Positions 3,795 to 6,700 of a stretch of DNA of 14,528 bases are shown here, piece after piece (position 1 is the stretch's first letter; each line of letters begins with the position of its first letter). The translations under genes were made by a program, and so were the position numbers. The stretch is taken from contig WQUQ01000095.1 in NCBI GenBank assembly GCA_009782025.1, forward strand, positions 1 to 14,528, read 5' to 3'. Below the pieces are notes generated by a model. The model made no database searches, was not told the origin of the DNA, and was given only the letters and a program-made list of their open reading frames with translations. This DNA is from Desulfobulbus sp. (GTDB lineage: Bacteria; Pseudomonadota; Gammaproteobacteria; Burkholderiales; Rhodocyclaceae).

Positions 3795-6700
3795 ATGACT
3801 TACTCCTTCACCGAGAAGAAACGCATCCGCAAGAGCTTCGCCAAGCGCGTCAGCGTCCTCGATGTGCCTTTTCTGCTGGCGACCCAGCTTGAATCCTTCA
3901 CGGCCTTTCTGCAAGCCGACACGCCGGCTGAAAGGCGCAAGAACGAAGGCTTGCAGGCGGCGTTTACCTCGATCTTCCCGATCGTTTCGCATTCCGGCAA
4001 CGCCCGCCTGGAGTTCGTCAGCTACATGCTCGGCGAGCCGGCCTTCGACGTGACCGAATGCCAGCAGCGCGGCCTGACCTTCGCCTCGTCGCTGCGCGCC
4101 CGCGTGCGGCTGGTCATCATGGACCGCGAGGCACCGGATACGGTCAAGGAAGTCAAGGAGCAGGAAGTCTACATGGGCGAGATTCCGCTGATGACGACCA
4201 ACGGCTCCTTCGTCATCAACGGCACCGAGCGCGTCATCGTCTCCCAGTTGCACCGCTCGCCCGGCGTATTCTTCGAGCATGACCGGGGCAAGACGCACAG
4301 TTCCGGCAAGCTGCTGTTCTCGGCGCGGGTGATTCCCTATCGCGGCTCCTGGCTGGATTTCGAGTTCGATCCGAAGGACACGCTGTTCTTCCGCGTCGAC
4401 CGCCGGCGCAAGATGCCGGTCACCGCGCTCTTGAAGGCCATCGGCATGAGCGCCGAGGAAATCCTGGCCGAGTTCTTCGCTTTCGACACCTTCCTGCTCG
4501 CCAGGGACAGCGTCCAGTTCGCCCTGGTGCCCGAGCGCCTGCGCGGCGAAACAGCGCGTTTCGATTTCGTTGCCGCGGACGGCAAGGTCATCGTTGCCAA
4601 GGACAAGCGCATTACCGCCAGGCATATCCGCGACATCGACGCCGCCGGTCTGAAGCAGACCGCCGTGCCGGAGGATTTCATCCTCGGCCGCATCATTGCC
4701 CGCAATATCGTCGATACCGCGACCGGTGAAATCGTCGCCAACGCCAATGACGAAATCACGGAAACCCTGCTCGCCAAGCTGCGCGAAGCCGGGATCAATA
4801 CCGTCGAAACGCTGTATACCAACGATCTCGACCGCGGCGCCTTCATCTCCAACACCCTGCGCGCCGACGAAACCGCCTCGCGCCAGGCGGCGCGCATCGC
4901 CATCTACCGCATGATGCGTCCGGGCGAGCCGCCGACCGAGGAAGCCGTCGAGATCCTGTTCAACGGCCTGTTTTACTCCGATGAACGCTACGATCTGTCG
5001 GGCGTTGGCCGGATGAAGTTCAATCGCCGCCTGGGCCGTTCCGATGTCGTCGAATACAAGGCGATGCTGAAGAGTCTGCCGTCGCGCGCCGAAGCCGCCC
5101 TGCGCAACCTGGCCGACGCTTCCGGTTTCGCGCTGGCCGCCATTCAGGATCTGGTCAGCCTGTTGCCCTACGGCGCTCGCGCCATGATCGAGAATGCCAC
5201 GCGGGCCGAGGCCGAGGCGCTGGTCGCTAGGCTCAAGCCGCTGGGCGCCAATATCGAGGTGCGTGAGCAACTGACGCTGTCGCCGCGCGACATCGTCGAG
5301 GTCATCAAGATTCTGGTCGAACTGAGGAATGGCCGCGGCGACATCGACGACATCGATCACCTCGGCAACCGCCGTGTGCGCTCGGTCGGCGAACTGGCCG
5401 AAAACCAGTTCCGCGCGGGGCTGGTGCGCGTCGAGCGCGCCGTCAAGGAGCGTTTGAGCCAGGCCGAGTCGGACAACCTGATGCCGCACGATCTCATCAA
5501 CGCCAAGCCGATCAGCGCCGCCATCAAGGAATTTTTCGGTTCCAGCCAGTTGTCGCAGTTCATGGACCAGACCAACCCGCTGTCGGAAATCACCCACAAG
5601 CGGCGCGTCTCGGCCCTCGGCCCGGGTGGTCTGACCCGCGAGCGCGCCGGCTTCGAGGTGCGCGACGTGCATCCGACGCATTACGGGCGCGTGTGCCCGA
5701 TCGAAACGCCGGAAGGCCCGAACATCGGCCTCATCAACTCGCTGGCCCTGTTCGCCCGCGTCAATGGCTATGGCTTCATCGAGACCGCCTACCGCAAGGT
5801 GGTCGATGGGCAAGTGACCAACGAGATTGAATATCTGTCGGCCATCGAGGAAGGCAATTACATCGTCGCCCAGGCCAATGCCGCGCTCGACGACAAAAAC
5901 CGCCTGACCGACGATCTGGTCACCTGCCGCGAAAAAGGCGAAACCATTTTCGCCGATCCCTCGCGCGTGCAGTACATGGACGTGGCCCCCGGCCAGATCG
6001 TCTCCGTCGCCGCTTCGCTGATTCCCTTCCTCGAACATGACGACGCCAACCGCGCGCTGATGGGCGCCAACATGCAGCGCCAGGCCGTGCCCTGCCTGCG
6101 TCCCGAGAAGCCGCTGGTCGGCACCGGCATCGAGCGCACCGTCGCCGTCGACTCCGGCACCGCCGTCGTTGCGCTGCGCGGCGGCAAGGTCGATTACGTC
6201 GATGCCGGCCGCGTCGTGGTGCGCGTCAATGACGACGAGACGGTCGCCGGCGAAGTCGGCGTCGATATTTACAACCTCATCAAGTACACCCGTTCCAACC
6301 AGAACACCAACATCAACCAGCGGCCGATGGTCAAGGTCGGCGATGTCATTGCCAAGGGCGACGTGGTCGCCGACGGCGCGTCGACCGACAAGGGCGAACT
6401 GGCGCTCGGCCAGAACATGCTGATCGCCTTCATGCCGTGGAACGGCTACAACTTCGAGGATTCGATCCTGATTTCCGAGCGCGTCGTCGCCGACGACCGC
6501 TACACCTCGATCCACATCGAGGAACTGACGGTCGTCGCCCGCGACACCAAGCTCGGCCCCGAGGAAATCACCCGCGACATCGCCTCGCTCGGCGAAGCCC
6601 AGCTTTCCCGTCTCGATGATTCCGGCATCGTCTATATCGGCGCCGAGGTCGCAGCCGGCGACGTGCTGGTCGGCAAGGTCACGCCCAAGGGCGAAACCCA

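Follow-up and report, generated by a model that had tools for sequence, protein, structure and literature searches.

The main catalogue of insertions in RNA polymerase (RNAP) is reportedly the one compiled by Lane and Darst in 2010. Among the known insertions of the beta subunit (RpoB), SI1 (beta-i4), SI2 (beta-i9) and BEAN (CATH 3.90.105.10) are clade-wide domains in surface loops, with SI1 located in the beta lobe. Insertions in the large RNAP subunits have mostly been sorted into few recurring folds, BEAN and HABAS, and most lineage-specific ones in beta into BEAN domains (reported in PMC11515920). We describe an insert that also spans a clade and also occupies a surface loop of the lobe, and that differs from SI1, SI2 and BEAN in having another loop as its site and the fold of the C-terminal domain (CTD) of ribosomal protein bL12 (L7/L12). 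It is encoded in a stretch of 14,528 nucleotides, hereafter the window, which is contig WQUQ01000095.1 of assembly GCA_009782025.1, labelled Desulfobulbus sp. and placed by GTDB in the Rhodocyclaceae. The bL12 CTD (PF00542; structure 1ctf) is bound by translational GTPases (PMC10931766). Whereas bL12 is a free-standing stalk protein with a dimerisation domain, the insert is embedded in RpoB and has no such domain.

For a lineage-specific RNAP insertion this fold is unexpected. By computation we show that the insert is homologous to L12, which fold is predicted for it and where it sits, that it has a single origin in the sampled tree and is under purifying selection, and that most of its GTPase face is lost. 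In the open-access literature searched, a scope outside which most subscription papers lie, we found no report of an L12-type insert in RpoB; the main text of PMC11515920 has zero occurrences of 'L12', 'lobe', 'Rhodocycl' and 'betaproteobacteria'. The predicted topology of the insert is that of L12.

Site, homology and predicted fold of the insert

The rpoB gene of the window (positions 3795..8078, + strand) is an intact open reading frame (ORF) of 1427 amino acids (aa; NCBIfam TIGR02013, 1838.6 bits). Compared with short-loop relatives, its product has about 75 extra residues (about 416-493), which the RpoB of E. coli and Pseudomonas do not have. A preliminary description of this DNA had noticed a segment with no counterpart in E. 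coli RpoB, and the alignments to the PDB agree: with phmmer, residues 1-418 and 494-1425 align to P. aeruginosa-type RpoB (7f0r) and 419-493 are skipped. The reported jump of the residue offset to E. coli RpoB, from +4 to +75 across the insert, is also recovered. The GRMKFN motif begins at residue 405 with a glycine that we take to be E. coli G401, and the histidine of the downstream conserved segment is residue 522, against H447 in E. coli. This E. coli numbering is consistent with D444G/H447R (PMC2936116). The insert is in frame, is conserved among relatives and has a GC content of 0.662, close to the 0.637 of the gene.

Domain matches, profiles and the predicted fold place the L12-CTD-type domain in the beta lobe at RpoB residues 416-492, with a core at about 420-490 (5040..5270, + strand). 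The span given in the preliminary description, 5049..5270, is correct within a few codons, the domain proper covering about 420-490 and the extra segment about 416-493. Its location of the insert near the fork loop was loose, as the loop in question connects the two final helices of the lobe domain (beta2), around 30 residues before the H522 segment. The stretch that was folded as lobe plus insert, RpoB 140-545 (4212..5429, + strand), matches E. coli beta about 150-446 and has the insert between these two helices. We have little doubt that the insert folds as a domain, shares its ancestry with the bL12 CTD and is located in this loop.

The likeness to the L12 CTD, first seen by eye, is above chance, and the profile check named at that stage gave a significant match. 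An hhalign comparison of 35 inserts with 54 L12 CTDs returns a probability of 96.6% (score 51.0 over 69 columns), while 50 column-shuffled versions reach at most 18.2. A profile search of the PDB matches 1ctf at E 9.5e-5. The same structure is the best PDB match of the window insert alone, as a single sequence (E 0.0024), and the NCBIfam L12 model matches RpoB residues 420-490. PF00542 scores 20.0 bits on the window insert (E 8.9e-4). As this is below the curated Pfam cut-off of 25.9, we describe the insert as homologous to the L12 CTD and do not count this sequence alone as a member of PF00542. Over the 35 inserts, the L12 hidden Markov model (HMM) reaches 35.7 bits at best with a median of 21.6, PF00542 is matched singly by 19 of 31 inserts at E <= 0.1, and precomputed domain annotation already marks this family in at least two RpoB relatives (P0070 and P0118). 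PF16320, the N-terminal dimerisation domain of L12, is present in rplL and was not found in the window RpoB by a Pfam scan. The insert and the bL12 CTD are alike in the order of their elements and share 31% identity over 71 columns of 1ctf; they differ in a loop before G460 that is three residues longer in the insert, in new invariant residues and in the loss of most GTPase-contact residues.

Profiles made only of inserts retrieve genes of rplL size from whole genomes. Scans with them gave matches in 122 of 399 genomes from the order (E <= 0.01) and in 198 of 398 from the phylum (E <= 5e-4). Among the matches listed in the two scans, nearly all are frames of rplL size, besides seven rpoB rows in the order and the window in the phylum; the exceptions in size in the order scan are three frames of 316-381 aa and one of 79. 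The L12 signature was present in 40 of the 42 rplL-size matches checked, and in 29 of these 40 an rpoB-like start lies no more than 1.5 kb away. Among those members of a 5.8-billion-protein database that have 0.55-1.75 times the insert length, the insert profile gave eight matches at E <= 0.01, seven of which read as RpoB pieces and one as L12 (P0128, E 2.8e-3).

The other check named at the outset, a structure prediction, also came out in favour of L12: the AlphaFold2 model of the insert has the topology beta-alpha-alpha-beta-alpha-beta with a core pLDDT above 90, which is the topology of the L12 CTD as far as a prediction can tell, and Foldseek returns 1ctf as the first match of the model. 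In geometry, ClpS is nearer than the L12 CTD to the predicted insert, the fold being the same. The insert could accordingly be a ClpS-type adaptor domain able to bind N-degron peptides or a Clp protease, which we consider extremely unlikely given that the sequences show no profile likeness. When the inserts are compared to 29 ClpS from the window genome and its relatives, hhalign returns a probability of 0.19 over one column, and the ClpS HMM scores 3.1 bits at best on the 35 inserts (median -1.2), against the far higher values of the L12 HMM given above. PF02617 is absent from the families matched by 31 inserts, the NDDxT segment of the 29 ClpS is not seen in the inserts, and in 38 of 41 genomes a ClpS match is located elsewhere. 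ClpS is therefore rejected by sequence as the identity of the domain and stays only as a protein with the same fold.

Distribution, history and origin

We surveyed 297 genomes of the family, 238 of which have an rpoB match, covering 62 of 68 genera, and read the loop in chosen loci among the matches listed. The L12-type insert is present in 13 genera among the loci read (g1, g30, g170, g174, g176, g177, g185, g196, g204, g205, g210, g211 and g213). The other family loci have a short loop, a segment of around 33 residues or an unrelated-looking insert of 84-86 residues. In the best 80 of 88 loci, named genomes with the insert include Azonexus, Dechloromonas, Azovibrio, Azospira, Rhodocyclus, Propionivibrio and Accumulibacter, and metagenome-assembled genomes (MAGs) labelled Zoogloeaceae, Azoarcus and Comamonadaceae likewise carry it. 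Since named isolates and MAGs alike have the insert, an assembly mix-up as its origin is ruled out. The nearest RpoB relatives of the window among the matches listed are named Azonexus, Dechloromonas, Ferribacterium and Quatrionicoccus.

An RpoB tree was computed with the loop removed (LG+G4 quick search) from 66 rows selected among the loci. The 36 L12-type rows of Rhodocyclaceae type form one clade (SH-aLRT 99) with one change; the outgroup L205, from a remote order, itself has a homologous insert and was labelled apart. In this sampled tree the insert arose once, in the ancestor of part of the Rhodocyclaceae, and was then kept. A genome placed in the window genus (G010, contig C31, locus L177) has an rpoB without the insert. 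In the tree this rpoB falls with L178, from a different genus, and its contig is 11.7 kb long, so that a misbinned contig is a likelier cause than loss of the insert within the genus. Genome G656 holds two different rpoB genes (L168 and L169) on two contigs, one with and one without the L12-type insert, and is probably a mixed genome.

In the class, a scan of 369 genomes at E <= 1e-4 added a single rpoB match, that of G934. This genome belongs to a remote order of the same class, and the five genomes examined from this order (G934, G818, G1077, G1078 and G1032) all have a long loop at the same site. A profile of these five rows matches the inserts with an hhalign probability of 98.5% (score 76.7, at most 16.7 in 50 shuffles) and matches L12 less clearly (44.9%), so that the remote-order segment is homologous to the inserts and less clearly so to L12. 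The segments are 21-38% identical to the window insert, and the insert HMM scores 26.0 bits on the loop of L214, 17.3 on that of L217 and 3.0 on that of L221. Within the remote order, a profile search at E <= 0.001 matched the rpoB of G934 only, the other four being read from the loop; residues 408-512 of the G818 RpoB, used as a protein query, matched a single protein, with 100% identity, and gave no sign of a wider distribution. The insert is an extra domain in the conserved beta subunit, as lineage-specific insertions are, yet its homologue in the remote order takes it beyond a single lineage. As the RpoB of this order is very distant in the tree, the presence of the segment there may be due to transfer, to very old descent with losses or to independent capture.

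The same loop takes further forms. The unrelated-looking insert of 84-86 residues (type B) occurs in three family genera (L171, L172 and L173) and in another family (L028/L200, G036), and needs two changes on the RpoB tree. The three type-B inserts scanned gave no Pfam match, and we found no evidence that these inserts (L028, L171-L173) are L12-like (hhalign 0.7% to L12 and 11.8% to the inserts). The conserved segment of around 33 residues, RRAYPEKIDDKAPxWLKRFYxxVGPxGEEG, is found in 10 of the 66 tree rows (L183-L185, L189-L192, L195, L197 and L169). The L12-type insert of L174 (G641, contig C5, genus g213) holds a nested segment that resembles RpoB near window residues 1041-1108 and has 34% identity over 93 columns to the remainder of the same protein, an arrangement that resembles an internal RpoB copy, an insert within an insert. 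Genome G621 has a frame of length similar to that of L174.

Read by eye, the gene order of the window is tRNA-Trp-secE-nusG-rplK-rplA-rplJ-rplL-rpoB-rpoC, with family models backing rplL and rpoB. The rplL gene (3203..3571, + strand), which encodes bL12 according to the ORF list, a domain match and alignment, is identical to the insert at 18 of 71 aligned CTD columns and ends 223 bp ahead of rpoB. This proximity would suit an origin of the insert from a duplicate of rplL that entered the adjacent rpoB, and gene neighbourhood has been proposed as a possible influence for other RNAP insertions (PMC11515920). The score of the insert profile on L12 goes in the same direction, with a mean of 26.8 bits in insert-bearing genomes (n = 76) and 25.0 in insert-less ones (n = 29); where the rpoB loop is not in view, in loci that belong for the most part to other families, L12 averages 28.3 bits (n = 24). 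Against a local donor, a tree of 58 rows (18 of the 35 inserts, taking every second one, and 40 L12, over 77 columns) has the inserts as one group (100/100) that adjoins the L12 of two genomes of another order (L206 and L207) and does not fall within the L12 of the family, and the top-scoring L12 with the insert profile, L118 and L206, are from other families. Long branches and the 77 columns make both the placement of the donor in the tree and the score ranking weak. We regard the neighbouring rplL as a possible but rather doubtful donor.

At the other end of the window, an ORF on the - strand (14130-14528) resembles by eye a PIN-domain protein (MIIVADTNIIARLF...) and is possibly part of a toxin-antitoxin pair; its first listed ATG sits at the extreme window end.

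Residue conservation and the proposed role

We counted residues in the 35 inserts, leaving out L174 with its nested insertion. The contacts of L12 with translational GTPases are presumably K65, V66, I69, K70, R73 and K84. The mapping of K65, R73, K81 and K84 to A432, A440, A448 and Q451, and of K70 to R437, stands as first proposed, and the loss of most of the GTPase-contact face is seen across the inserts. Arginine is found at the R73 position in 0 of 35, the V66 position holds E or D in 35 of 35, and K65 and K84 are changed in 34 of 35 each (K in 1 and R in 12 at the former, K in 1 and R in 1 at the latter). K70 is kept as lysine in 19 of 35. Other L12 residues are widely kept, namely E53 (35), V56 (33), G77 (32), E96 (35), A103 (35), L106 (31), L110 (33), G114 (31) and E118 (31).

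The inserts have also acquired conserved residues of their own. K422 (5058..5060, + strand), at L12 position 55, is lysine in 35 of 35. In the segment G460-A-R462-A-M-I-E466-N467-A468 (5172..5198, + strand), G460 (position 90), E466 and N467 (position 97) are present in 35 of 35 and R462 (position 92) in 34 of 35; E466 is common with E96 of L12, and N467 stands where L12 has G97. R490 (5262..5264, + strand), at position 120, is arginine in 32 of 35. Since K422 belongs to the first strand and R490 to the last, close to the two linkers, this new set of residues probably lies near the base of the modelled domain.

The insert is under purifying selection, with a dN/dS of 0.19 compared to 0.074 for the remainder of the gene (55 close pairs among 67 genes). 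Its net charge is mildly negative (mean -2.3, n = 35; -1 in the window), which gives no hint of DNA binding. Eleven RpoB columns co-vary with the presence of the insert, three of them in the lobe; this signal is not separable from shared ancestry, and we dropped it as a guide to a docking site. (Near-)fixed in insert-bearing RpoB and rare elsewhere are F350 for Y, Q364 mostly for W, D396 for E and five residues at 710-724.

The explanation that we favour, with some confidence as a whole, joins the L12-type identity of the domain to a present role as a protein-docking module on the mobile beta lobe, a role that we put forward tentatively. The face for translational GTPases is largely dismantled, and the new conserved set (K422, G460, R462, E466-N467 and R490) would either pack the domain on the lobe or hold a partner. 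As most of the GTPase-recruiting residues are lost, the domain probably docks something else; our tentative proposal is that on the mobile lobe it serves to dock a factor that is not a translational GTPase. The likeliest partner would be a factor of the lobe or secondary channel (DksA/Gre/TraR type, or UvrD), over a translation GTPase or a trailing ribosome, because the lobe walls the downstream-DNA channel, rotates on TraR binding and binds PcrA/UvrD via SI1. In the SI1 part of the window lobe, DTATGEIV (4713..4736, + strand) resembles by sequence the TGE motif, which is reported to bind the Tudor domain of PcrA/UvrD (PMC8318588).

Two other readings compete with docking of such a factor. The domain could have kept an L12-like job and tether a translational GTPase or the ribosome to RNAP, coupling transcription to translation, as its homology to L12 and the K70 retained in over half of the inserts would allow. 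We find this improbable in view of the contact residues lost or changed in nearly every insert. In addition, a trailing ribosome sits at the RNA exit, away from the lobe. Ribosome contact seems less likely because the lobe is one wall of the downstream-DNA channel (PMC6970531). The main rival to docking holds that the insertion is tolerated and has no specific partner, and that it persists because the loop permits length changes. The variety of loop forms elsewhere fits this reading, as does a dN/dS about 2.5 times that of the remaining gene, and deletion of beta-i4 or beta-i9 in E. coli has relatively minor effects on growth, though the beta-i4 deletion fails at 42 C (PMC2939025). We nevertheless hold it to be unlikely, since dN/dS in the insert is 0.19, K, G, E, A and N are invariant and R near-invariant across the 35 inserts, and 0 members of the 36-row clade are without the insert.

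The docking explanation has a broader form, which we offer as a speculation that we would not expect to hold. In it, rpoB would have captured an L12-type module that gives RNAP a stalk domain of its own. Two groups that are far apart within one class would carry this module in a common loop of the lobe, where it would bring a regulatory factor to the downstream face of the enzyme, much as GTPases are brought to the ribosome by its stalk. Its presence in the two groups would then be due to transfer of an rpoB segment or to very old descent with many losses.

Organisms known from wastewater treatment and from the removal of phosphorus are among the carriers of the insert. With a ribosomal-stalk fold in the beta lobe, RNAP insertions gain a further fold type, and a module common to the ribosome and RNA polymerase links two central machines. 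The insert gives a direct test case for lobe insertions as lineage-specific docks for factors.
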